From: Polychytrium aggregatum
Lineage: Eukaryota > Chytridiomycota > Chytridiomycetes > Polychytriales
Direction: 5' to 3'
Assembly (NCBI RefSeq): GCF_025602895.1
Contig: NW_026516251.1
Location: 275,021 to 339,020 of the forward strand
DNA: 64,000 bases
The stretch's first letter is position 1. The number at the start of each line of letters is the position of its first letter. Shown here piece after piece: positions 1,608-23,448 of this stretch. A model generated the notes under the pieces. That model searched no databases. It was not told the origin of the DNA and saw nothing but the letters and a program-made list of their open reading frames with translations. Position numbers and translations under genes: made by a program.

Positions 1608-3523
1608 ATGCTCGCCCGCCAAGCCATCCGTGTTGTACGTATTCCCTCTCGATCGGAGGCGAGCGATGGCCTGCGCGACTTGTGGTGTCCTCTGGTCCTC
1701 TTTCCAGGCCGGGCCATCATCTGCAGCGACCTCGGTCCGCTCGGATGCCACCAGCATGCGCGTTGTCCGGAGCTGTGTCTTCCCTGAGCAAGCACGTCGG
1801 CCGGCGGCCAAGCACTGTGGTGTGCAGCGTCGTCGTATCTATGCACCGTCGTCCATTGCGTGTGGCTTGTGCATCGGCTGTGATTCCTGGAGCAAGCCGG
1901 TTCCTCTGCTGGCATGGATGGGACCCTGCTTTGCACCACAGACGGATCTGCTGAGGAAGAGCGCCCTGGGTTCTCGGCAAGACAGCCAACTGTCTCTGCG
2001 AATCGTTCATGGTCGCTGACGGCTGTACCAGAACACCCTTCCGATCTCATTCTTGACCGGTGCTCGACTCTTTGGGCGGAACATGGGCACTTGTGCTGAC
2101 GCCTCCCTCTCTTTCGATGTCTTCCGTCCATCCATGCGTCCAGGCCTCTCGCTCGTACGCGACCGCCTCTGCTTCCGTTCAGGTACAAACCGCACTTGCT
2201 TCCTGCTGCGGTCTGCCATGTCGTGTTTGCTTGCGGCCCACGCCATCCGATCCCCGCTTTCAACAATCACTCGACACGACGACAACAACATCTGCTCGTC
2301 GGTCAGACAATGTTCATGCCGATCGATTGCGACGTGCATGTATCAGCGGCAGACGGGACCATGGAATTGGCTGCAACCGTGGCGCTTTGTTCAACACGGA
2401 TCGGATCATCGAGATACACAGTTTTTGATCCGAAAAGCTTGGTGGCAGCCCAACCGACCACGCCTTCGGTCAACGGATGCGATATGGAGGCTGTGGTCCA
2501 TCCCTGTGCATGTCCATGCAGACTCTATCGGCAGCAATCGACTGGGAAGTGGGCTCTGTCTTGGAGCGTTGCCGACCGCTGTTTGCTGCCAACCCCGGAA
2601 AACAATACCACATTTCCACTTCGCCACGGTACTCCCGCCTGGCATCATACACACTTTTGGGAGCCTTCAAATCACAACGCCGACTTGCGGCCAGCAAAGC
2701 TGAAACGATGCCGACACGATGGTGCCTCCCAGGATGATTACATGTTCGCCAAGCCTCGTTTGCTAAGAAGCCCTCTGTGTCATTCTTGTTCCCTCCCCCG
2801 TTTCGATCGTGTCGCAGGTCCCCGTTGCTCTCTACGGCATTGAGGGTCGCTACGCCACTGCTCTCTACACCGCCGCCGCCAAGAAGAAGAACCTGGACAC
2901 TGTTGAGGCCGATCTCAACCGTCTCCGCGCTATCTTGGACAAGGATGCCAAGCTGAAGAGCTTCCTCGAGACCCCCATTGCCAACAACACCACCAAGCGC
3001 GAGGGTATCAAGCAGCTCGTTTCCCAGTCCAAGTTCTCCGAGACCGTTGCCAACCTCCTGGACCTGCTTGCCGAGAACGGCCGCCTCGACCACACCTCCA
3101 AGATCATTGATGGCTACGAGCAGCTCATGACTGCCCACCGCGGCCAGGTCACCATCACCATCACCTCTGCCAAGGTAAGTTCCGGTGGCGGTAAAGCGCA
3201 GGACGAACAGGCTGGTGCTGGGCCAAGTAGATCGCACTGTGCTTGCAGTGGCTAATGCATTTGATGCATCATTTTATGTACATGTGCATATGATTGCCCC
3301 GCTCGCTGATTTGCAGGAGCTGGATGCCAGGGTCACCAACACCATCAAGGGCCACCTCCAGAAGAGCTCGATCTTGAAGGCCGGCCAGAACGCCAACATC
3401 GTCAACAAGGTCAACCCCCAGATCCTCGGCGGTCTCATCATCGAGTTTGGCGACAACACCATCGATCTGTCCATCTCCTCCAAGATCACCAAGCTCAACC
3501 GCCTCTTGACCGAGACCATCTAA
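1608..3523 (+). CDS. ATP5: Mitochondrial ATP synthase OSCP / subunit 5 (delta family)
   Basis: Stator-stalk subunit of the F1Fo ATP synthase, linking the peripheral stalk to the top of F1 in the mitochondrial matrix. Two exons are certain: 2818-3174 (acceptor GTCGCAG, donor GTAAGT) and 3317-3523, together giving the whole OSCP fold. They open with VPVALYGIEGRYATALY, like VRLFGVEGTYATALY of yeast Atp5, and close with the family signature GGLIIEFGDNTIDLSIS followed by SKITKLNRLL. The likely first exon is 1608-1634 (MLARQAIRV, then a GTACGT donor), a basic mitochondrial targeting start. Joining it directly to 2818 keeps frame but gives a very short presequence, so a small middle exon may hide in 1635-2817. 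A candidate polyadenylation signal lies at 3641. The downstream exons are certain; the first exon is tentative. Confidence 0.9.
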
Positions 3524-6660: not shown

Positions 6661-8523
6661 TCACTGGGTTGGGCAAATGGACCTTGGCTTGGACTGGAGC
6701 TCTTTGACGCTGTGGATAGCCCACAGCAGATCCTGGTCGGCCGCCTTGCGGTACCAGTCGAGAGCGATTCCGATGTCCTTGGAGACACCCTCGCCGGTCT
6801 CGTAGCAGCGGCCGAGGTACCACTGTGCGTACCGATTGCCCTGTTCGGCGGACTTGCGGAAGGTCTCGGCTGCCTTGACGAAATCCTTGGCAATCGTGCG
6901 TCCCCAGTAGTAGCATCGACCAAGTTCCCACTGGCCATACGGATCGCCCTGGTTTGCAGCCAGGGTGTACCACTGTATCGCCGCAGCATGGTCGATGGAT
7001 ACTCCCAACCCCCAGTAGTAGCAGCGTCCCAGCCAGACTTGATTGATGCAGTTTCCGTTGCTGGCGAGCCGCTCAAAGATGCCCACGGCCTTCTTCTGGT
7101 CCCGCGAGGTTCCGAACCCAAAGAACACACACACGGCCATCAGATGCTTGCACAACCAATCTCGCTCTGATCCCAGCTGGCACAGCTCAAAGAACCGACA
7201 AGCCACAGAGGAATCGGAGAAGGTGTTATCGCTGAAGGCCAGACATTCGCTTTCTCCAAGCGGGAACAAGTCCGACCTGCTGTCGCGGATCGTCTTGACG
7301 CCCTTCAGTTGGTCCCGCACAGTGCCGCGGCCGAGATAGTGCATCCATCCGAGCATGTGGGTGGCGATGGGTTTGATGATCGGATCGTCGGATTGGGTGC
7401 TGACTTCCTGCCAATGGTTGAAGGCAACTTGATCGCTCTGCTCGACGCCATGGCCGATCAGCGCAAACCAGGCCATTCGGTGGCGCGTCTCCAGGTTGCT
7501 GGTATCGGTGCCGATATCAAGGAGCTGAGCGACTGGCTCCCGGCCAGGGTTGTCAGCAGGAGAGCGACCAGAGATGGCCTTGACAGCATCTGCCCGCTCA
7601 CCGACCGGTCCATCCGATTCAGACTCGGGGAGAGGTGTTGCTGCATCGAGAATTGCAAGGATCTGAGGGAACGCAAGCTGATCCGATGGAATGCAGACGC
7701 AACAGCGCTTGACGAGAGCCCAGATGCCGTCAGGGACACCGTCGACTCGGCTGAGGCTTTGGCCATCACGGATAGCAGGCTCGGTAGCTTGAACATGCCG
7801 GGCTTGCGCGTCGCCAGTGGCCCAGACCGGCTTGCCGTCGTTCAGGACTTCGTACATCAAGATGCCAAATGCATGGATATCTGCGGCTCTCGATGACTCA
7901 GCTGGTCGCTCGTCGGCGAGGGTCTTTGGCGTTCGGTTGTCGAGACTGCCGTCGGTCTGACTCTTGGCTGCATGCGAGTCTATCGAGACGGATGTATGCT
8001 TGATACGAGACAGCCCAAAGTCACTGATGACAGCATTGACGCCACCGTCGAGGAGGACATTCGCAGCCTTGAGGTCGCCATGAGCGACATTGTGTTCATG
8101 GAGATACACCATCCCCGCAGCCACTTGGCGGAGCAAACGGAGCTTCTCCCCGAGGGAGACAGGGGTGGCTGGGTCCGACACATGGTCGCGGAGGGTGCCG
8201 TTTGGCATGAAGGGCGAGACCATGAAGGGAGGAATCGGATTGCCGTCGTCATCCCGGTCGCAGGCACCGAGCAGGGACAGGACGTTGGGATGGCTGAGCT
8301 TCTGCCAAAGATCGATATCGTGATGATATTCATTGAGCTGATGGGTGCTGCATGTGTCGAGGAGCTGCTTGATGGCGACCTTGGAGCCAAGGTATGTGCC
8401 GGTGAAGACCGAGTCAAGGCCACCACGACCGATGGGGTTGGCCGAGCGGTCGGTGATGTCGCTGGGCGCGATGTACCAGGACAGCCGCTCGGGAGAGGGG
8501 CGAACGAAGGGCTCGCTGGCCAT
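6661..8523 (-). CDS. Protein kinase-like domain fused to Sel1 repeats
   Basis: Intronless, 620 residues from the ATG at 8523 (an upstream in-frame ATG at 8676 would add 51 low-complexity residues encoded by tandem repeats, so I prefer 8523). N-terminal kinase fold of the tyrosine-kinase-like type: degenerate glycine loop IGRGGLDSVF (31-40), VAIK lysine at 52, catalytic loop HGDLKAANVLL (148-158) with HGD instead of HRD, and SDFG (167-170). A canonical APE is missing before ADIHAFGILMYEVL. The C-terminal half carries Sel1/TPR-like repeats (LGRCYYWGLGV, AEQGNRYAQWYLGRCYETGEG). Such proteins act as cytosolic signalling adaptors; substrates cannot be guessed. It is divergently paired with a Sel1 paralogue at 8819 and shares a mirror-identical tract with it. 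The kinase may be active or a pseudokinase. Confidence 0.85.
   Translation of the reverse strand: MASEPFVRPSPERLSWYIAPSDITDRSANPIGRGGLDSVFTGTYLGSKVAIKQLLDTCSTHQLNEYHHDIDLWQKLSHPNVLSLLGACDRDDDGNPIPPFMVSPFMPNGTLRDHVSDPATPVSLGEKLRLLRQVAAGMVYLHEHNVAHGDLKAANVLLDGGVNAVISDFGLSRIKHTSVSIDSHAAKSQTDGSLDNRTPKTLADERPAESSRAADIHAFGILMYEVLNDGKPVWATGDAQARHVQATEPAIRDGQSLSRVDGVPDGIWALVKRCCVCIPSDQLAFPQILAILDAATPLPESESDGPVGERADAVKAISGRSPADNPGREPVAQLLDIGTDTSNLETRHRMAWFALIGHGVEQSDQVAFNHWQEVSTQSDDPIIKPIATHMLGWMHYLGRGTVRDQLKGVKTIRDSRSDLFPLGESECLAFSDNTFSDSSVACRFFELCQLGSERDWLCKHLMAVCVFFGFGTSRDQKKAVGIFERLASNGNCINQVWLGRCYYWGLGVSIDHAAAIQWYTLAANQGDPYGQWELGRCYYWGRTIAKDFVKAAETFRKSAEQGNRYAQWYLGRCYETGEGVSKDIGIALDWYRKAADQDLLWAIHSVKELQSKPRSICPTQ
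7294..7417 (-). repeat. Inverted 124-bp identical tract, copy 1 (Sel1 pair)
   Basis: The reverse complement of this stretch is identical to 9595-9718 with no indel (paired coordinates sum to 17012). It lies inside the kinase-Sel1 gene and encodes WQEVSTQSDDPIIKPIATHM and following residues. Flanking coding sequence is paralogous but clearly diverged. Confidence 0.85.
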
Positions 8524-8559
8524 GTTGCGAGGGATGGATGCTGGAAGAGATGAGTTGGA

Positions 8560-8640
8560 GGATGCAATAATGGAACAATGGCGCGATGGGATGACGGAAC
8601 AATCGAGCGGTGGGATGACGGAACAATGGAGCGACGATTT
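8560..8640. repeat. Minisatellite upstream of kinase-Sel1 start
   Basis: Imperfect repeats of GATGACGGAACAATGGAGCG-like units, seen on the plus strand. They lie between the divergent starts and are read as a Ser/Pro/His-rich stretch if the kinase started at 8676. Confidence 0.6.
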
Positions 8641-8818
8641 GATGGAGTGATGGATGAGTGGGAATGTGGATGGCAAGCACTCGATCCATGGATCCAGCCA
8701 TGTTCATGGTTTGGTGGCTGTGCCACTCCCGTTCCATTTTGCCCATCTCGTCCTCCATCTGATCGCTTGGATATCATCATTGCCGCTCCCATCACATCAG
8801 TCTCCTGCATCGCACATC

Positions 8819-10324
8819 ATGGCCAGTGCCCATCCCACAACCGACATGGCTCGCCTTGCCATCGACGAACACAACCCTGACATCTTCACCATCATCTGCT
8901 GCAACGACAGCTTCCAGCTTGCCCTCGACCACAACACCATCAAAGCCCTCCTCCAAGTGTGCAAACGAGCCCAGCCTCTCCTCAGTTCCAAGCTGACTCG
9001 CTTCCACACCTGGTGCCAGAATGCAGGACTGTGTCGTTCCGATGGACAGCTGCGAATCGGCATCACACCGAGCGACCGGATCGCCCTCTCGATGCACTAC
9101 AAGGATCAAGCTGCAACCGATCGATCCTGGCTCGTTGCCCTGGCCTACCGGGGCAACACTGTTGCCTCGTTTATCCTGGCTCGCATCCTCCAAGTCGATC
9201 TCGACAGATGTGAAATGAGACGATCCGTGCGCAAGACAACTCAGCAACAGGTCTTTTATCATCTGGAGAAGGCCGCCAACGCAAGCCATCTGCTGGCGCA
9301 GTGCTATCTGGCCGAGTGCTATCATCAAGGTGTTGGGGTCGACCGAGATGACGCCAAGGCTGTCGCTCTGTATCGCAGCCTTGCGGACCGTGGACTCGCC
9401 CAGGCTCAGATCGGTCTCGGTCGATGCTTCGAGAGCGGTGAAGGTGTCGATCAAGACTATGGCATTGCCATCGAATGGTACTCCAAGGCTGCAGACCAGG
9501 GCAGCGACGACGGCCGTCTCCACATCGAGTTTCTCCGAGGATGGTTCTCGCTCACTGGACACGGTGTCGAACAGAGCGATCAAATTGCCTTTAGCCATTG
9601 GCAGGAAGTCAGCACCCAATCCGACGATCCGATCATCAAACCCATCGCCACCCACATGCTCGGATGGATGCACTATCTCGGCCGCGGCACTGTGCGGGAC
9701 CAACTGAAGGGCGTCAAGGCGATTCAAGACAGTCGATCGATTGGATTTCCGTTCGGCGAAAACGAGTGCCTGGCTGCACGGCTGTGGACCGCTTGTGGTC
9801 CTCCAGCATCCCGCAAGTTCTTTGGATTGTGCCAGTCTGGATCGGACCGAGACTGGTTGTGCAGGCATCTGACGGCCGTGTGTCTGATCGAGGGCTTTGG
9901 CACCCGGCGAGACAAATCAAGAGGAGTCGAGATTGCCGAGCAGCTCGCACACGACGGCCATAGCGATAGCCAGTACTGGATCGGAAGATGCTACTACTTT
10001 GGCTGGGGAGTGGTGGAAGATCACAAGAAGGCACTCGAGTGGTTCAGCAAATCGGCCGACCAGGGCAACTCGTACGGACAGTTGGGAGTCGGCGAATACT
10101 GCTACTTTGGCGACGGGGCTGCCGAGGACCACGCCAAAGCATTCGAATGCTTCCGCCTGTCGGCCGAGCAAGGCAATCGGCACGGGCAGCTCGGGCTCGG
10201 AGCATGTTTCAAGAATGGCTATGGAGTCACCCGGGACATTGACACTGCCCTCTTCTGGTACCGCAAGTCTGCCGAGTCGGGTCTCCGAGAGGCCCTCGAT
10301 TCCCTCGAGGAGCTTGGCCAGTAG
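8819..10324 (+). CDS. Sel1-repeat protein
   Basis: Intronless, 501 residues from the ATG at 8819. The N-terminal about 130 residues are helical without a recognised domain. From about residue 160 to the end there are Sel1-like repeats with the usual G-x-G-V...D...A pattern: CYLAECYHQGVGVDRDDAKA, LGRCFESGEGVDQDYGIA, IGRCYYFGWGVVEDHKKA and LGACFKNGYGVTRDIDTA. Sel1 arrays are scaffolds for protein complexes. It is the plus-strand partner of the kinase-Sel1 gene, and its C-terminal two thirds are paralogous to that gene's C-terminal half, but it has no kinase domain. The divergent starts are about 295 bp apart, so a shared promoter is likely. An in-frame ATG at 8654 would lengthen it into repeat-rich DNA; I favour 8819. 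Confidence 0.85.
   Translation: MASAHPTTDMARLAIDEHNPDIFTIICCNDSFQLALDHNTIKALLQVCKRAQPLLSSKLTRFHTWCQNAGLCRSDGQLRIGITPSDRIALSMHYKDQAATDRSWLVALAYRGNTVASFILARILQVDLDRCEMRRSVRKTTQQQVFYHLEKAANASHLLAQCYLAECYHQGVGVDRDDAKAVALYRSLADRGLAQAQIGLGRCFESGEGVDQDYGIAIEWYSKAADQGSDDGRLHIEFLRGWFSLTGHGVEQSDQIAFSHWQEVSTQSDDPIIKPIATHMLGWMHYLGRGTVRDQLKGVKAIQDSRSIGFPFGENECLAARLWTACGPPASRKFFGLCQSGSDRDWLCRHLTAVCLIEGFGTRRDKSRGVEIAEQLAHDGHSDSQYWIGRCYYFGWGVVEDHKKALEWFSKSADQGNSYGQLGVGEYCYFGDGAAEDHAKAFECFRLSAEQGNRHGQLGLGACFKNGYGVTRDIDTALFWYRKSAESGLREALDSLEELGQ
9595..9718 (+). repeat. Inverted 124-bp identical tract, copy 2 (Sel1 pair)
   Basis: Exact inverted copy of 7294-7417, inside the plus-strand Sel1 gene. Immediately outside it third-position and amino-acid differences resume (for example GVKAIQDSRS here against GVKTIRDSRS in the partner). 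Confidence 0.85.
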
Positions 10325-15713: not shown

Positions 15714-18518
15714 ATGCTTCAGCCCCAGGCCCCTGACCCGGCCCGCGCAAGCCCAGTTGCCGAGCTCAAGACCCCTATTCATGCACCCGAAGCGGCCGAG
15801 CCTGCTACCACTCTGGCCCAGCAGGATGCCCGGCAAGACGCCCAGCAGGACGCCCAGCAGGCTACCCAGCTCCCTACTGCTCCTCCAACCCCAAAGACCC
15901 CGCAGCTCCAGTCGCCGTCGACTCCCGATGTTGGCTCGACCCCGTCCACAAGAACGGCTCCTACGCATCTGTCGACTCCCTCGACCCAGCAAACTCCCTC
16001 CAGCCATCTCACCCCGTCGACCCAGCAAACTCACTCCAGTCGACCAGTTCTGACGAGCCCGTCCACGCTTTCCAGCCAGCAGACGCCTCCCGGCCAGCAT
16101 GTGCCGTCCAATCTCATGACTAGAGATCTGCCCTCGAATTTGTCGCTGCAGTCCTCCGAAGCCAGCTTCTACACCGAGCCTCCCCGGCCCAATACCTCCA
16201 GGCGGGCAGCGACGCCGATCCCAAACCTGGCCCACGCATCCTCGTCGTTGTCGTTGACGACTGAGACGGCATCCGTGACGTCCTCTCAGATCCCCGTCAC
16301 CTCGTCGCCGCTCTGGTATGCTCGGCCCATCGACACCGACAGCGCTTTCCGCGAGGCCATCTTCCGCCCATTTGTCCGCGAAGGATCGGTCTCGTCCCTT
16401 GGCCACCGAGCCTCGACCCTGAGCATGGCCGATAACCTGAGCCCGCAGTCCACTTCGGCGCATCCGCCGCTCGCTCGACAAATGACCGCAACCACGTATT
16501 CGACCGAAGACGGCCGGGAAGTCACAGCGTCCTCGGCAATCCGGGATGAACTATCCCCCATCCTCAAGTTTCTGACCATTGTGCCGCCGTGTCTCACCCA
16601 ACGGTGCACCTGTGGCTCTGGTACGAACGCCAATTCATCGGCAGCGATCCCCGGGTCTATACAACCAACATTTCCCGCCCTTTTTTGCATCCAGAGCACG
16701 GTGCATATGGATCCACTGACACTGCGTTCCCCTCCGTGGACTCCACAGATTTGCTCGTCGGTGTCTTCACCCTGTCGTTTGTGGTCATTGGCCTGAATAT
16801 TCTCGGTAATGTCATGTTCGATCCGCGGCTTTCTTTGGCGAACCATGGACTGCCGCCAGGATCCATCGACTCACGCGCATAGCTCTCTCTGCTGGTCTTG
16901 CACGTCGCTCCCTCTGCAGAAATCATCAACTTTAGCAAGTCTACGGATGTGCTGCTCCCGAGCAAGCCCGCATTGCTGGTCTTTGACAGCATCAACGTCT
17001 TTGCGCTCTTCATTTTCGTGTCTTGTGTCTCAAGAATCGAGGTGGGTACTGGGTGAGGCCGTTCTTTTGTCGCTCAGGATCCGTAACACTGGGGCACTTG
17101 GGAGATGCCATTGCCAGCACGGCAAAGCTGCCCGCTCCCAAATACTCTGGGTGTGCGGTTGGTGCTTTCGCCAATATCCTCAGCTGTGTTGATGTGGCCA
17201 TCAGGCCGACACGAATGCTTGCTTGATAGGGCTTTGACATATCCTTGATGCATTTCTGGCCGCGTAGCTGTTTGCCCTTATCGGTTTTCAGGTGCTGTGG
17301 TGCACCATCTACACGGGTAAGACCTGCAGTGGCGTGGCATTGCTCCCCATCGTTAATGATGGAGGGCTTTGATGTTTCTTCGCCGGCAGCACAGTCGCTG
17401 GCCAGCATCTGACAACAGCCTGCCTCCAGCATTCGCCATCGTCCAGATCGCTCTCGAGATTCAAAACGGGCTCTTTGCGCAATTGTTTGTCGAGCTCGGC
17501 AACTCAAACATCAACTCGTTCGAAAAGCTGGTCATTTTCCTCGTCAAGGTCGGTAGTGGTCTGGTCATTTTGTGACTCCTCGCTGTTGGGATGTGGGAAG
17601 GGCCGTGTTGATGATACTAACGACTCTGCTGGTCCACAGCTTTACTTTGGCTTGTTCATGTACTCTCTATGGTTTGTAAGTACCTCTTCGGCGAGGCATC
17701 GCCCCCCGCGGTGCTGGATCGCTGTCAGGAGCAGCTCTACTGCGTGCTGCTGGATCGATTCTGTTGCACGGGTCGACCTGGCCGAGTCAGCTTAGCCGGG
17801 TGGTTACATCGCTCAGCCGTGTCCTCTGGCTGAATCCCGACCGTTTTCCATCCAGAGCATCGTCCGTGAGCCCGAAGCCTACTATCCCAACGACGATGAC
17901 GTCTCGACGGTTGCATCCTCGATCGAGCCCCTGCCCGAATACGTACCACCCTACCGCCGCACTCCAAGTCTCCGTGCCTCGAGTATCCGCAACCTTGCCC
18001 TCAACATGGATCTGCGCTCCGCATCCCCGCCACCGCCGTACCAAAGCGACATCGAGAGCCAACCGTACCCCAGCCCCCGGTCTTCTGTCCATAGCCTGCA
18101 AGGCCACGGCTCACACCGGTCGCTGAGATCGCTGGCTCTGATTCCCACAGCGCAATCGCCAAATCAGGGCACGTCCGCTAACATGTTTGGCCAGCGTGCC
18201 CGACGAACGCATTCGGCCTCGTCCCTGAGCCGAGAAGCCCAGATCACCATGGGCGATATACCACTTTCACGCTTTGCGTCCGACATCCACCCAAGCATTG
18301 TCACGTCACTGTCCTCTCCCCTGTCGTCTCAAGCCTCTGCAGGCAACCTTCCGAGGGCCGACCCTCGTGCCGCTGCTGCAATCAGCCCAGGGACGCCCGT
18401 CACACCCGAACTCCGAGCAACCTCGGCACTGCCCACACCCACGATCAACACTCCACGCATCCCCTCACCATCACACTCGGCCGACCTTGGCGAACCTGAC
18501 CACGGTGCAGCGTCATGA
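15714..18518 (+). CDS. Multi-pass membrane protein with C-terminal PPxY motifs
   Basis: Family not recognised. The N-terminal about 280 residues are Ser/Thr/Pro/Gln-rich and disordered. Five hydrophobic segments follow: LLVGVFTLSFVVIGLNIL, LLVFDSINVFALFIFVSCV, LFALIGFQVLWCTIYT, VQIALEIQNGLFAQLFV and LVIFLVKLYFGLFMYSLWF, split by small introns with good donors. The cytosolic-looking tail has LPEYVPPYRR and PPPPYQS; PPxY is the classical WW-domain ligand of Rsp5/Nedd4 ubiquitin ligases, so ubiquitin-dependent traffic is plausible. The reading frame changes near 16570-16645. A 77-bp intron 16568-16644 (weak GTTTCT donor, GGCAG acceptor) restores it; otherwise there is a frameshift. The stop is only 207 bp before the mobile element. 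Confidence 0.6.
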
Positions 18519-18722
18519 GAGCCACGAACCTGCGTCCGACACGTTTCGGTTGTCCGGCCTGGCCCGCTCCTGCATTAGAATCAGGCCGCGGATGTTCTCC
18601 AACCTACCGAGCGGCAGCCTGCTTGAAGTCGAGTCCCCTGCGCCAAGAGCAGCGGCTCTGTTGATCCATTTTCGATCCCATGCCGTTTCGTCGCCTCATC
18701 AGTTCTCTTTTACAGGCAATCC

Positions 18723-18728
18723 AATAAA
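18723..18728 (+). terminator. AATAAA at the left end of the mobile element
   Basis: A perfect AATAAA straddles the outer edge of the left inverted repeat, 205 bases after the stop of the PPxY membrane gene, on the same strand. It may act as that gene's polyadenylation signal; this is inference from position. Confidence 0.4.
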
Positions 18729-18738
18729 AAACGGGACA
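18726..18738 (+). repeat. Left terminal inverted repeat
   Basis: AAAAAACGGGACA, matching all 13 bases of the inverse of 22451-22463, and lying 58 bp before the transposase start. Extending outward to 18711 gives a weak further match (both sides read TAC at the same offset), so the repeat could be longer and decayed. Confidence 0.8.
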
Positions 18739-18796
18739 CCCGGGTTTTTGACCATTCATCGAATATTTTGTTACCCAATGCTATCGCGCGCTGGCC

Positions 18797-19729
18797 ATGA
18801 CCATTCGCCACACATCCGACTTTCGCACCGCCGCATTGCGATGCTACGATCTCATCCATAGCCTGCGTAAGGTTGCCTCCATATTCAGTGTATCCAAGAG
18901 CACCATCCATCGATGGCACCGAGGATGCAAGCTGGATGACCCATCCCGGGTCCCAGCTCGCAGATCCACTTTCTTCGAGCAGGCATGTCCAGTCATTCGC
19001 ACCCTGATTGAACAGGACCCGTTCCAGACTGGTCCTGTGTTGCGGTGCAAGCTCGAGTCCATCCTCCAGAGGAAAGTTTCACTCTCACTCTGCCACACTG
19101 CCATCCACCGAGCAGGTCTCTCACACAAGAGGGCAACACACCTCTACAAGTCCAAGCGACTGGATGAGCGAGTGGCACAGTTCAGGGACCAGGTCCGCTC
19201 CATCGACCCACGACGATTCGTTTTTGTCGATGAGACAGGGATCAGGAGATCCATTTTCTCTCTCTACGGATACTCACCGAAGGGTGCTCCGCTTCGCCAG
19301 CGCAATCACATGAAACACAAGTCTGTCTCGGCTGCATTTGCCATCAACCACTCTGGTGTGCTGCATCGCATGTACATCCCCACATCATTCAAGACACACT
19401 CGATGGTCGAGTTCTTTGAGCAAGCGACCTTCCCAGACGACTCTGTGGTTGTGATGGACAATGTCAGCATGCACAAGACAAGGGCTGTCCTGGACTGCAT
19501 CGAGCGCCGAGGATGGTCAGTGATCTTCACCCCACCTGCCTCGCCCGACTTCAATCCCATCGAGAACTTCTTTGGGATTGTGAAGCATCAGTACAGGAAG
19601 GTGGCAGCGCTGAATGCGTCCGAGGGGTTCAGAGTCGGGATGGTGACCCTGTTTGAGTCTGCCGTTCGGAGGGTGCTTCCAGATGTCTTCCCACGGCTGA
19701 TTGAGCGAGCGATGCGCTTCTGGGGTTGA
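18797..19729 (+). CDS. DD34E transposase, IS630/Tc1/mariner superfamily
   Basis: Cut-and-paste transposase, 310 residues, a typical size for the family, intact and intronless. N-terminal helix-turn-helix around residues 23-40 (LRKVASIFSVSKSTIHRWHR) and a second helical DNA-binding stretch around 70-113. The catalytic core shows the three acidic residues in standard context: D145 in FVFVDETGI, D221 in VVMDNVSMHK and E256 in PDFNPIENFFGIVK. There are 34 residues between the second Asp and the Glu, giving the DD34E spacing. The ATG at 18797 lies 58 bp inside the left inverted repeat. It presumably mobilises the whole unit including Fanzor. Closest style is the IS630-like/Tc1-like branch rather than DD34D mariner proper. 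Confidence 0.93.
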   Translation: MTIRHTSDFRTAALRCYDLIHSLRKVASIFSVSKSTIHRWHRGCKLDDPSRVPARRSTFFEQACPVIRTLIEQDPFQTGPVLRCKLESILQRKVSLSLCHTAIHRAGLSHKRATHLYKSKRLDERVAQFRDQVRSIDPRRFVFVDETGIRRSIFSLYGYSPKGAPLRQRNHMKHKSVSAAFAINHSGVLHRMYIPTSFKTHSMVEFFEQATFPDDSVVVMDNVSMHKTRAVLDCIERRGWSVIFTPPASPDFNPIENFFGIVKHQYRKVAALNASEGFRVGMVTLFESAVRRVLPDVFPRLIERAMRFWG

Positions 19730-19981
19730 GTTCCCTCCAATCAAGCCGCCATTTTCGCGTTCACATCCCTGGCTTGAACCTCTCGGCGATTTTTGAACAG
19801 GGTCACTTCCCCAACCAGCCCGCGCAGTCGGGTTCCTGCTCTCGGGTATAAATGCCACACCTTCGTCCTGCTGCTTTCTTCCCTCATCTCGCCTTGATCT
19901 GATCATCGCGCTATTGTACGATAAAGAGAAGTCTCTGCTCTGACCAGTACCACTGGCAGGCATCCAGCATCCTCTGCCCCC
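19730..19981 (+). promoter_or_regulatory. Fanzor promoter region with TATA box
   Basis: The 252-bp gap between the transposase stop and Fanzor start contains TATAAAT at 19847-19853, 129 bp before the Fanzor ATG, followed by a C/T-rich leader. This suggests Fanzor has its own promoter rather than depending on read-through from the transposase. Confidence 0.55.
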
Positions 19982-22378
19982 ATGCCTCCGAAGCGCAAGG
20001 GTGCCGGTGATGGCCAGCCTCGGCCACCCAGGCCCAAGAAAGCCAAGTCACAGTCGGAGCCTGTCTCTGGTTCGTATTCTGATCCCACGCATGCTTGGTC
20101 GTCTGTTGCTCCGTCGCTCACCACCACTGCTTCTGCAGATCCAATGGATGTCGATCCCACCGAGCCTGGTCCATCTACTTCCTCGAGTACTGGCAAGCGA
20201 TGTCGCCAGTGCGATGGCACCGATCACGAGCGAAGCAACACCAGCAAATGTCCCAAATACCGGCCCCTCAAGAGCTCTGTCGTCCCACTCGTGGATGGAA
20301 GGTCATCCGCCCCTCAGTTCAGCTGCTTCAAGCAGACGATGGATGGCATCTTCTGGAAGAATGCAAAGAAACAGTGGCTCAATCCCGACCTCTGGGGCAA
20401 GATCCAGGCCACCGTCGCAGCCATGACCCAGATCCAGTTCGAGGCATCCAGGCTGCTCAACCTGCACATCCTCCGGTGCATCGAGCAGGATATTCCCATC
20501 CCCGTCATCTCCAAGTCCACCCCTGCTTTCATCCGCCAATGCTTCACGATTGTCGAGGCCGGTGCCCTCTCGCCGACCGGGGACAATGAGAAATACAACG
20601 AGCATCTGATCGCTTCCTTTCGCGACTACCAGACCACTCGGCACGCAGACCTGCCTCCGGCCCCTTGTCTGCCTGATGGCGCTCACAGTCAGCTTCTCAC
20701 TCTCGCTGTCAATGCCTATGCCACCAACTGCACCACCCACCTCGACCTGGCCTACTGGCGACTCCTTCGCCGCTTCTGCGCTGCCGTCTTCCCTGCCAAC
20801 AAGCATAAGCACGACGCCATCGAGGTCTGTCTCGAGCTCTTCGAGAAACCAGGGCAGACTCCACCCAAGGCCGATATCGAGTTCCTCTACCCGGACTTTG
20901 GTCACGTCCTGGACGAGTTTCGGTACAGCAACGACCAGAACCGCTTCCGGGCCCTCCACCGCCTCTCACACCATGTGAGAATCCTCGCCCGAGACAAGAT
21001 GGTCGACAATGTCCACAAGTGGATCGACTGTGACATGCCCGCCCTCCGAGTCACCGAGCTGCAGCGCCAGGCCAAGCTGGATGAGCTCACTACCCAAGGC
21101 ATTCCCTCCGACGACAAGAGGTTCACCACGGCCAAGCCTGAGCTCGGCACCACCAAGTCCAAGATCAACAAGCTGGCATCCAGGCTCAACTGGGCCCTCA
21201 AGCAGCTCGCTCTCGACACTCCTCCGTCCGTGTGCACGATGGTCCCTCTGTGCACAGCCAAGGCCAAGTATGTCAAGATCGACACCGTCACTCTTTGGCA
21301 ACTCCTTGACACCGAACATCGTCTTGGACTCACCAGGGACATGCTCAAGGATGAAGGCGAGGACGGTGTCAACAACCAGGATCGTCTCTGGCGCAGTTGC
21401 TTCAAGCTGCGTAGTTCCCTCTTCCAAGAGCAAGTCAGGGACAGGAAGCTGTTCAACTACGAGATCAGCACCGATGGCATTGGATGCACCATCGGTCTCG
21501 TCAAGTTTCTGCCTCGAACCGATCGCACCGAGACCATCGAGCCTCCTCCGACTGCCGAGCAGCGTATCCAGGCCCACATCGGCGACCCAAACCCCGATCG
21601 CACCACTTGGATTGGCATCGATCCTGGAGTCGGCTCCGTCTTCACTGCGGTCATCCAAGCACCGGGCCACCAAGACGAGATGGTCTCATTCTCCAATGGC
21701 CACTACCAGCAAATGTGTGGCCATACGTCCAACACCAAGTGGCACAACACCATGAAGTATCGACTCAGCATCGGGACCTGGATGTCGACCACCCCCTCGC
21801 CCAAGGTGTCGTCCTCGGAGGCTTTCAAGGTCCATCTCACCCATGTCCTGCGACCGGAGCTGCGAGTGCAGCTCGACTTCCACCTTGGCAAGAAGGCCCG
21901 TCACCATCGATTCACAGGCCGCAGGAGACGCCAAGTGGCCGTCGACAGGATGTGCAAGGCCGCCCTGAAGCACGCCCCGATACGGACTGATGTGGTGATC
22001 GCCTTTGGCAATGCGTCATGGCGTCAAGGCAAGGGCTATGCATCCAGCCCTCGGAGGCAGCGGTTCGCTCGGTACTTTGAGCAGTTCGAGCACCACCGAC
22101 GCCGTCCCACTCACCCTCACGGAAGCGTCAAGGTAGTCTCGACGAACGAGTTCAACACCTCGCAAGTGTGCTCCAAGTGCCTGGAGCCAGTTCGGTTGGA
22201 AGGACTCGATGCGCCCAGTGTTGCGAATTCCCACTTTGTCAGGAGCTGCAAGAATCCCAGCTGCCGGACAGTGTGGAATCGCGACGTCAATGCGGCGCGC
22301 AACATGATCACAGTATGCAGGTCGATTGTGGAGACCGGAGAGCGACTGGCGGTCTTCACTCGGAGGCTGCCAAAGTGA
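19982..22378 (+). CDS. Fanzor (Fanzor1-type), TnpB-related RNA-guided endonuclease
   Basis: 798 residues, one uninterrupted exon. Basic N-terminus (PPKRK at 2-6, RPKKAK at about 17-22) fits a nuclear localisation signal. A zinc-knuckle-like CX2CX4HX7C lies at C74, C77, H82 and C90. The nuclease is at the C-terminus. RuvC-I is WIGIDPGVGSVF with D547. At the usual RuvC-II site (VVIAFGNASW) the glutamate is replaced (G676/N677), but STNEFNTSQVCSKC offers E723 about 47 residues later, the rearrangement reported for Fanzors. The zinc ribbon is C730-C733 and C756-C761, and RuvC-III is RDVNAARN with D768. All catalytic positions are present, so activity is plausible. Known Fanzors use an RNA encoded at the element's 3' end to cut DNA next to a short adjacent motif. 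The large N-terminal half (REC/WED equivalent) has no obvious motif. Confidence 0.95.
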   Translation: MPPKRKGAGDGQPRPPRPKKAKSQSEPVSGSYSDPTHAWSSVAPSLTTTASADPMDVDPTEPGPSTSSSTGKRCRQCDGTDHERSNTSKCPKYRPLKSSVVPLVDGRSSAPQFSCFKQTMDGIFWKNAKKQWLNPDLWGKIQATVAAMTQIQFEASRLLNLHILRCIEQDIPIPVISKSTPAFIRQCFTIVEAGALSPTGDNEKYNEHLIASFRDYQTTRHADLPPAPCLPDGAHSQLLTLAVNAYATNCTTHLDLAYWRLLRRFCAAVFPANKHKHDAIEVCLELFEKPGQTPPKADIEFLYPDFGHVLDEFRYSNDQNRFRALHRLSHHVRILARDKMVDNVHKWIDCDMPALRVTELQRQAKLDELTTQGIPSDDKRFTTAKPELGTTKSKINKLASRLNWALKQLALDTPPSVCTMVPLCTAKAKYVKIDTVTLWQLLDTEHRLGLTRDMLKDEGEDGVNNQDRLWRSCFKLRSSLFQEQVRDRKLFNYEISTDGIGCTIGLVKFLPRTDRTETIEPPPTAEQRIQAHIGDPNPDRTTWIGIDPGVGSVFTAVIQAPGHQDEMVSFSNGHYQQMCGHTSNTKWHNTMKYRLSIGTWMSTTPSPKVSSSEAFKVHLTHVLRPELRVQLDFHLGKKARHHRFTGRRRRQVAVDRMCKAALKHAPIRTDVVIAFGNASWRQGKGYASSPRRQRFARYFEQFEHHRRRPTHPHGSVKVVSTNEFNTSQVCSKCLEPVRLEGLDAPSVANSHFVRSCKNPSCRTVWNRDVNAARNMITVCRSIVETGERLAVFTRRLPK

Positions 22379-22463
22379 TCTGTTTTATTTCTTGTGGCTT
22401 TGCTTGACGCAAGCACAGCACATACTACATGTTCATGGAAACGGCTATATTGTCCCGTTTTTT
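22300..22463 (+). ncRNA. Candidate Fanzor guide-RNA scaffold (fRNA/omegaRNA)
   Basis: In TnpB/Fanzor systems the RNA scaffold overlaps or follows the 3' end of the nuclease gene and runs to the element's right end, with the guide taken from flanking DNA. Here 85 bp lie between the Fanzor stop and the right terminus. They contain a perfect hairpin, TGCTTG-ACG-CAAGCA, at 22401-22415, right after the stop. If the model holds, the guide would be read from 22464 onward. The 5' boundary given is a guess; no RNA evidence is available. Confidence 0.45.
22451..22463 (-). repeat. Right terminal inverted repeat
   Basis: TGTCCCGTTTTTT on the plus strand, the exact inverse of 18726-18738. A seventh T follows at 22464, and CTGAATA leads out to the nearest TA at 22470. 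Confidence 0.8.
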
Positions 22464-22471
22464 TCTGAATA

Positions 22472-23448
22472 TAGCGTAGATCCTTGCCCTCTCCTCCACT
22501 TCCTTTCCTTTCTTTCTTTCTTCTCTTCCTTTTTTGACGAGCCCATCGCACTTTGCACGGTTTTGCTTCACTCATCTGCCCACTTCTTCCACCGGGACAG
22601 CACCACGATCCCATCTGTGGCTTTCCAGCGACTTTTTCTCTCTGTTTGTTCATGCTGTGTCTCGCCCCGGGCGTCCAGGATGACTTGAATGATGCAAACC
22701 CTGCATGAATACACACATTGCCATTCCACATCTTCCCAGGCGAACCGGCCCACCAAGACAACGGGGAGCAGATCGGAGATCCTTGGCAGGCGAGCTACGT
22801 TCCCTTGGCAATCGTGTGAGATCCACGATGGGGGGCATCTCGGACATCGTCGGGTATCTTGTGTATCTTGGGCTGTGGATCTGATACCGCCCATTCGCTC
22901 TGCCCCCTTAAGTATCGCTCTGCCATCGCCGCATCTCAAGCAATACGCGCTCTCCTCTCGTCTGCAAGGTTGATATCGCCGTCGGTTGTGTTCTGATTGA
23001 CCCTGGTTGCTTGATTCTGCCCTCGGGCCGTCCTTTGTCTCTGCACCTCATTCTTGCCCACAATCTTGCCCACAATCTTGCCCACAATCTTGCCCACATT
23101 CTTGCCCACATTCGCTCGCCCGTCCATTCTTGTGCGTCGCTTGCAGGTTCCTGGCCGCTTGTCTTCGCTCCCGCTTTTGCTTCCTGTGCCCCTCTCTCTG
23201 TCCGCTTGCCGCCCCCACCCCTTGGAGGCCGTTGCTCTCTTGGTCCGCTGCCTTTGGCTCGCCTGTGCGTCTGTCCCGCCATTCACGCACTGAGCCCTGT
23301 CTTGCTCCCCATCTCGCCTGCTAACGTCCGGTCGTTGTTCCTCTGTCGTTGCCCATCCAGCCCCTCAACGTCCAGCCCCTCAACGTCCAGCTCATCAACT
23401 TCCTGGCTCTTCCACACCCAACTTCGCGACGCCCAGCTCCCTTTAGAC
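22472..23448. other. Spacer upstream of auxilin gene, with 12-bp repeat
   Basis: No supported gene. It holds C/T-rich tracts, and four to five copies of a 12-bp unit (CTTGCCCACAAT/CTTGCCCACATT) at 23053-23112. It presumably contains the auxilin promoter. Confidence 0.4.
23053..23112. repeat. 12-bp tandem repeat (CTTGCCCACAAT)n
   Basis: Five direct copies, the last one or two with ACATT instead of ACAAT. Read directly from the sequence. Confidence 0.85.

Follow-up and report, generated by a model that had tools for sequence, protein, structure and literature searches.

A mariner/IS630-type transposon family of Polychytrium aggregatum with an intact Fanzor gene, TTA-flanked insertions and a sister family carrying another Fanzor

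What a Fanzor nuclease does for a transposon that encodes a transposase of its own is the question raised by one locus of Polychytrium aggregatum, within a stretch of 64,000 nucleotides (contig NW_026516251.1, positions 275,021 to 339,020 of the forward strand) that is called the window below. Here a single element combines a transposase, a Fanzor and a presumed guide RNA, and the family to which it belongs, family A, numbers hundreds of copies. The genomic arrangement of these copies can serve to test what the Fanzor is for, and a sister family, B, with almost the same transposase and another Fanzor, is a natural control. TA-flanked ends, an IS630 transposase, an intact Fanzor active-site signature, a high copy number and derivatives can be read directly from the sequence. 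The reading we lean towards is that of an IS630-type Tc1/mariner element whose second gene, the Fanzor, may serve its retention by RNA-guided cut-and-copy.

The element was delimited by comparing 20 full-length copies (16 distinct insertions) together with 1.5-kb flanks. Similarity within the family stops at the TA preceding CAGGCAATCC on the left and at the TA following AATAAAGTG on the right, which gives the window copy a length of 3,764 bp (18713-22476) with its left TA at 18711-18712. The original prediction, made from the letters of the window, had placed a complete element at 18726-22463, and each of the true ends is 13 bp outside that span. The inverted 13-bp ends it described do match perfectly in the window copy, but they are only the inner half of an imperfect 26-bp inverted repeat, of which 18/26 positions are matched in the window copy and 19/26 when the commonest right end is used. 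TA is present on both sides of all 20 full-length copies, in agreement with the TA duplications that had been expected. The terminal inverted repeats of IS630 and Tc1/mariner elements start with CA, and so do the commonest family ends (CAGG... and CACT...); the right tip of the window copy is CG. Other copies sharing these ends, also expected, are plentiful in the assembly of 64.68 Mb and 418 contigs, in which the window copy as first delimited lies at C363:293746-297483. With up to three mismatches 428 right and 447 left ends were matched genome-wide against 0 for the reversed control patterns, and the matches are therefore not due to chance.

T preceded the left TA in 15/16 distinct full-length insertions, in 11/12 distinct derivatives and in 60/62 distinct family-A flank 5-mers among the matches listed. 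The 5-mers came from 96 of 100 left matches listed out of 187, two with CAGCC, one with CAGTC and one with an inner mismatch being dropped, and short flanks that were identical were counted once, as probable alleles. The background frequency of T before TA in the window is 11.7% (325/2,770). The mirror base after the right TA, taken from all 100 right matches listed out of 219, was A in 15/60 distinct flanks, showing no mirror bias. Since the bias is one-sided, as a target-adjacent motif (TAM) gives, TTA is read as TAM-like. For SpuFz1 the TAM is CATA, and CA is conserved to the left of its ends (Saito 2023, PMC10432273). The TAMs of GtFz1 and PpFz1 are given as TTAA and ATN in a structural paper from 2024 (PMC11423790), the opening of which has the motifs of SpuFz1 and GtFz1 the other way round from its later text and from Saito. 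TA thus lies within two of the three published Fanzor1 TAMs compared (SpuFz1 and GtFz1, PpFz1 being without it).

Over about 1,012 bp, comprising the left end and the transposase, family B (L043, L045) shares 94-97% identity with four A copies, and 96.1 and 95.6% with the window copy. The resemblance breaks off at the transposase stop; the Fanzor beyond it is another one (850-854 aa, 38-40% identity), and the right end differs as well. The mean distance in the transposase half is 2.47% between A copies and 3.85-4.19% between A and B, with 12 fixed differences (16 A and 2 B copies). T was found before TA in only 4/8 confirmed B insertions (A vs B, p=0.001). Two of the eight, L043 and L045, were read directly; those on C58, C24, C68 and C72 and one on C63 were accepted because a B right end lay at the expected distance, and that on C157 by its PF07282 match, while C326:8395 was left out as a likely allele of L043. 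Twelve further stretches were fetched, of which eight had no left end by motif search, three had left ends already listed and one was new (L059, its TA mutated). Inclusion of L059 gave 5/9 (p=0.0017), and the eight plus six unconfirmed left ends gave 9/14 (p=0.0018). Strict TTA seems to accompany Fanzor A, because the nearly identical transposase and left end of B are less strict, and a weaker share of the preference may come from the transposase.

Some further observations were made on B-type ends. In B ends of the TTTGACTG type the position following the right TA looks rich in pyrimidines by eye, unlike in A. Right ends of type B2 are followed by AGTAT at many loci (L044, L048, L049 and L050 were examined, L044 keeping just a scrap of transposase). 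Site-specific homing before AGTAT was considered and rejected, as the shared sequence continues for about 270 bp past the end in these four; the B2 ends with AGTAT are thus part of a larger repeat unit. At L010 (5309-5679; C99) an A copy lies less than 100 bp upstream of a B-like Fanzor fragment with a B2-like right end, with L020 on C402 as its partner. The C-terminus of the B Fanzor gave only weak matches against PDB, the best (0.018) being a Cas12m.

Four full-length insertions were seen on two contigs each (L002/L003, L004/L006, L008/L011 and L010/L020), with left flanks 99.5-99.9% identical and right flanks 97-100% identical in three pairs. For L010/L020 the left flank was 99.9% identical and the right 95.5% over its first 602 bp, which hold the B fragment, and 99.3% thereafter. 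The assembly is therefore taken as partly diploid. All 18 sites seen on two contigs were filled on both (the four full-length pairs; L001, L007, L012, L014, L017 and L019; L024, L025, L027, L028, L030, L031, L033 and L034). The empty sites anticipated in the original prediction did not turn up: searches with the flanks of 24 insertions (12 full-length, 12 derivative) joined together found none, 40 of 90 and 40 of 108 candidates being scored. A comparison of flanks with the other haplotype was dominated by a repeat.

Different element types occupied the two alleles at 6/18 of these sites (L001, L007, L014, L019, L025 and L034). The partner of the window copy, on C68, measures 3,611 bp, with 169 substitutions and three blocks missing (105, 21 and 24 bp), and the 2-kb flanks of this site differ by 9 and 11 substitutions. 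At L025/L064 (C373) about 1,110 bp stand against 3,476 bp, and at L034/L065 about 279 bp against 308 bp. In seven pairs the alleles differed by 0.48% at the left edge (positions 1-150) vs 2.26% for non-alleles, and by 4.03% vs 5.80% in the middle (positions 2300-3100). Recurrent CpG mutation was tried as a source of the mosaic variants and rejected, just 109/493 biallelic sites being of the CpG type and the left flanks of alleles being nearly identical.

A putative guide RNA is placed at the right end. SpuFz1 uses a guide of 14-15 nt, and the 98 nt remaining after the Fanzor stop are near its 75-80 nt (Saito 2023, PMC10432273). The first 52 nt past the stop are poor in variation (3/52 variable sites vs 44/252 in the intergenic stretch, p=0.035), and the right end folds (z = -2.39) into a hairpin whose 3' side is formed by the right inverted repeat. 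When 51 nt are folded, A, B and B2 all place a hairpin at this position, the 5' arm in B and B2 being changed yet pairing, while in a 117-nt fold of B (z -1.30) the hairpin is not best and the right repeat pairs with other upstream bases. No Rfam match up to E 1 was found in 18500-22900. Together these features are suggestive of a guide-RNA scaffold.

The preferred reading may be put as a sequence of steps. The transposase would excise the element and insert it at TA. A short RNA reaching from the right end into the flanking DNA would then guide the Fanzor to the same site once empty, and the Fanzor would cut the empty site where TTA precedes. Repair would copy the element back from the homologous chromosome or the sister, and the copying strand could switch to another of the hundreds of copies, leaving alleles with like edges and unlike middles. 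Such retention would let a cut-and-paste element act as if it were replicative, and would yield both TTA enrichment and filled homologues. A more far-reaching version, which we hold to be doubtful, is that the Fanzor turns a cut-and-paste transposon into an RNA-guided homing element: TTA would be a selected TAM, insertions would be fixed on both homologues while template switching shuffles the interiors, and nearly the same transposase half would have been joined to two Fanzor and guide-RNA halves, each with its own TAM.

The transposase could also act alone, with asymmetric ends choosing the left TTA, the Fanzor being a passenger or having another role, and an inbred or clonal host filling both homologues. 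The outer 13 bp do differ between the two ends, which makes an asymmetric choice possible, and derivatives without intact open reading frames (ORFs) show the same TTA (11/12). Yet B, with nearly the same transposase and left end, has four of eight insertions without T, the Fanzor ORFs are better preserved than those of the transposase, and different element types at allelic sites would be left unexplained by this or by inbreeding. An element driven by its transposase only appears rather unlikely. For the mosaic alleles two other sources were weighed. That they are assembly artefacts, read correction or polishing having mixed reads from hundreds of similar copies, is a serious possibility, if short of probable: linkage decays within about 10-25 bp, which is a read-correction scale, and alleles agree best near the left edge, beside the unique flanks. 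Same-site alleles differ, however, in blocks matching known family types, about 30 bp to 2.4 kb in size, and two complete haplotypes of a divergent 17-bp block near 2597 are found repeatedly. We suspect read-correction scrambling behind part of the base-level pattern; it accounts less easily for the block differences. Ectopic gene conversion among dispersed copies, unconnected with the Fanzor, is also conceivable, though we give it somewhat less credence than the artefact. L008 and L011 are identical at element positions 1-1187 and have 75 substitutions from 1188, 74 of them by 3276, and the differing variants mostly recur among the 20 copies (39/51, 19/27, 58/75 and 92/120), both as conversion would have it; tracts of hundreds of bases would not by themselves make linkage decay over so short a range.

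Several observations weigh against retention by cut-and-copy. The transposases of L043 and the window differ at 12/310 residues, the contrast between A and B is based on eight B insertions, and the T share in B is itself above background (4/8, p=0.009), so part of the T preference may be the transposase's own. The coverage of the empty-site searches was limited to the candidates scored. Low heterozygosity, with left flanks 0.1-0.5% apart, would also give filled homologues, and homing from the allele alone would yield like, not unlike, alleles. The window pair differs almost to the right tip and by 2.0% at the left edge, which is not expected under a model of copying from the edge inwards. Linkage among 16 copies is at background within about 25 bp; this is shorter than ordinary conversion tracts, and some of the mosaicism may therefore be assembly scrambling. 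For the guide RNA, no covariation was seen inside family A, where no pair had a double change.

Both genes of the element had been described as intact and uninterrupted in one orientation, and both ORFs are indeed intact on the plus strand. The transposase scored 127.1 bits with NCBIfam transpos_IS630 (NF033545, curated cut-off 100) and 4.2e-24 with Pfam DDE_3 (PF13358), upholding its assignment to mariner/IS630, and no PDB match was obtained by sequence at 0.1. The three acidic residues attributed to this DD34E transposase are present as D145 (its position counted by eye on the translation), D221 and E256, the last two as D221-x34-E256. The RuvC acidic residues and zinc ribbon attributed to the Fanzor were likewise confirmed: D547 in DPG (547-549), E723, C730/C733/C756/C761 and D768, with Pfam zinc-ribbon PF07282 at 1.7e-9 and 38.1 bits (cut-off 26.3). 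A DPG in RuvC-I and a displaced Glu six residues before the zinc ribbon make up the Fanzor signature (Yoon 2023, PMC10711439), and both are found here, E723 lying six residues ahead of the first CxxC (E723-x6-C730). The signature residues are invariant in 4/4 aligned Fanzors, and the second cysteine pair is C-x4-C rather than C-x2-C. The prokaryotic TnpB model NF040570 gave 27.1 bits, below its 100-bit cut-off. A DDE transposase rather than IS607 as partner, and the length of the protein, point to Fanzor1 over Fanzor2. There was no PDB match for the Fanzor by phmmer at 0.1, and no viral relatives turned up when viral contigs were scanned twice, the queries being the Fanzor and its C-terminal third.

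The genome is rich in Fanzor/TnpB relatives. All 150 PF07282 places scored, out of 663 candidates, were above the cut-off. Apart from families A and B, TnpB-like relatives occur (L046, L047); the 476-aa ORF of L046 has TnpB domains, and its beginning resembles MerR, as in IS607, though weakly and below the cut-off. Within Fanzor A, short blocks at element positions of about 1655-1685 and 2595-2611 occur in two very different forms, which combine differently among copies (L001-L020, L063, L064, L066 and L067).

Copies of family A are full-length, shortened with the Fanzor kept, or ghosts keeping at least 166 bp of the right end. Among 98 right and 85 left places typed, from 100 listed per end, there were 61 joined end pairs: 22 full-length, 24 of 3.3-3.7 kb, 5 of about 1.11 kb, 9 below 400 bp and one of 3.17 kb. 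The 14 short derivatives examined (12 distinct; L021-L034) keep about 97-663 bp of the left and 166-447 bp of the right end. In a scan of the best 40 of 1,311 candidates, 25 spanned the full query, give or take 2 bases, and the other 15 were shortened, with gaps confined to the transposase in 13/15 (93-338, 644-769, 829-902 or 856-995 in a query starting at window 18726); the exceptions were one on C412, rearranged at the left, and one on C365, which also lacks the element after 3388, inside the Fanzor. Inner stops were absent from 52 of the best 56 of 1,263 candidates in another scan. Candidates were scored best first, and intactness is thus inflated in both scans. Of the 20 full-length copies 7, including the window copy, retain both ORFs at full length. 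The composite had been said to appear complete enough for autonomy; this would depend on the predicted activities of its two enzymes. The Fanzor is better kept than the transposase (16/20 vs 10/20, p=0.096) though it is 2.6 times longer. Third codon positions vary most, at 0.042 vs 0.014-0.016 in the transposase and 0.069 vs 0.026-0.030 in the Fanzor, indicating past selection on both proteins.

The element belongs to a Tc1/mariner-Fanzor kind already described. Mariners with transposase and Fanzor1 are known as PGv-1 and PUl-1 (Bao & Jurka 2013, PMC3627910); like the present element they hold a mariner-type transposase and a Fanzor1 within inverted repeats flanked by TA duplications, and a 5' transposase half recurs in elements whose 3' parts differ. 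PGv-1 and three relatives are reported as single-copy, with a shared part about 78% identical, whereas here there are hundreds of copies, and two Fanzor families share a transposase half at 94-97% in one genome. Spu-1 of Spizellomyces punctatus, which carries SpuFz1 (Saito 2023, PMC10432273), is similar in having a Fanzor1 in inverted repeats, ghosts in which the guide-RNA end survives, a TAM made up of conserved bases to the left of the end, and a 3' end placed like the omega-RNA. No transposase is reported within the ends of Spu-1, whereas here it lies in the same element; the motif here is TTA and not CATA, and the protein is longer. In its proposed role the system resembles TnpA-TnpB of IS200/IS605 (PMC11870625), where the guide records the site, the TAM is the target motif and the nuclease restores the copy, but it has a DDE transposase with a TA target instead of the peel-and-paste TnpA, and it resides in a eukaryote. 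New are the one-sided TTA flanks, the second family with another Fanzor and looser TTA, and the lack of empty sites together with alleles of mixed type. In the published literature, covered by titles, starts of abstracts and partial texts with few subscription journals, no account was found of this family, of a TAM footprint at insertion sites or of allele shuffling in a Fanzor element.

Table 1. Features of the family-A element in the window, with coordinates in the window.
Feature	Coordinates	Strand	Basis
Left TTA: TA duplication preceded by T, TAM-like motif	18710..18712	+	Family flank counts
Left terminal inverted repeat, 26 bp, imperfect	18713..18738	+	Boundary from 20 copies; 447 genome-wide matches
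DD34E transposase, 310 aa, IS630 / Tc1-mariner type	18797..19729	+	Pfam DDE_3, NCBIfam transpos_IS630, D-x34-E
Fanzor nuclease, 798 aa; DPG, displaced Glu, zinc ribbon, final Asp	19982..22378	+	PF07282 and residues
Putative omega-RNA scaffold, Fanzor stop through right end and TA	22379..22478	+	Low variation, fold z
Predicted terminal hairpin, 3' arm = right inverted repeat	22429..22472	+	51-nt folds
Right terminal inverted repeat	22451..22476	-	Family boundary; 428 genome-wide matches
Right TA of target-site duplication	22477..22478		TA on both sides, 20/20 full-length copies
Predicted guide, host DNA after right TA	22479..22493	+	Prediction; length by analogy to SpuFz1

Elsewhere in the window, at 6661-10324, a protein kinase with Sel1 repeats lies beside a second Sel1-repeat protein on the opposite strand.

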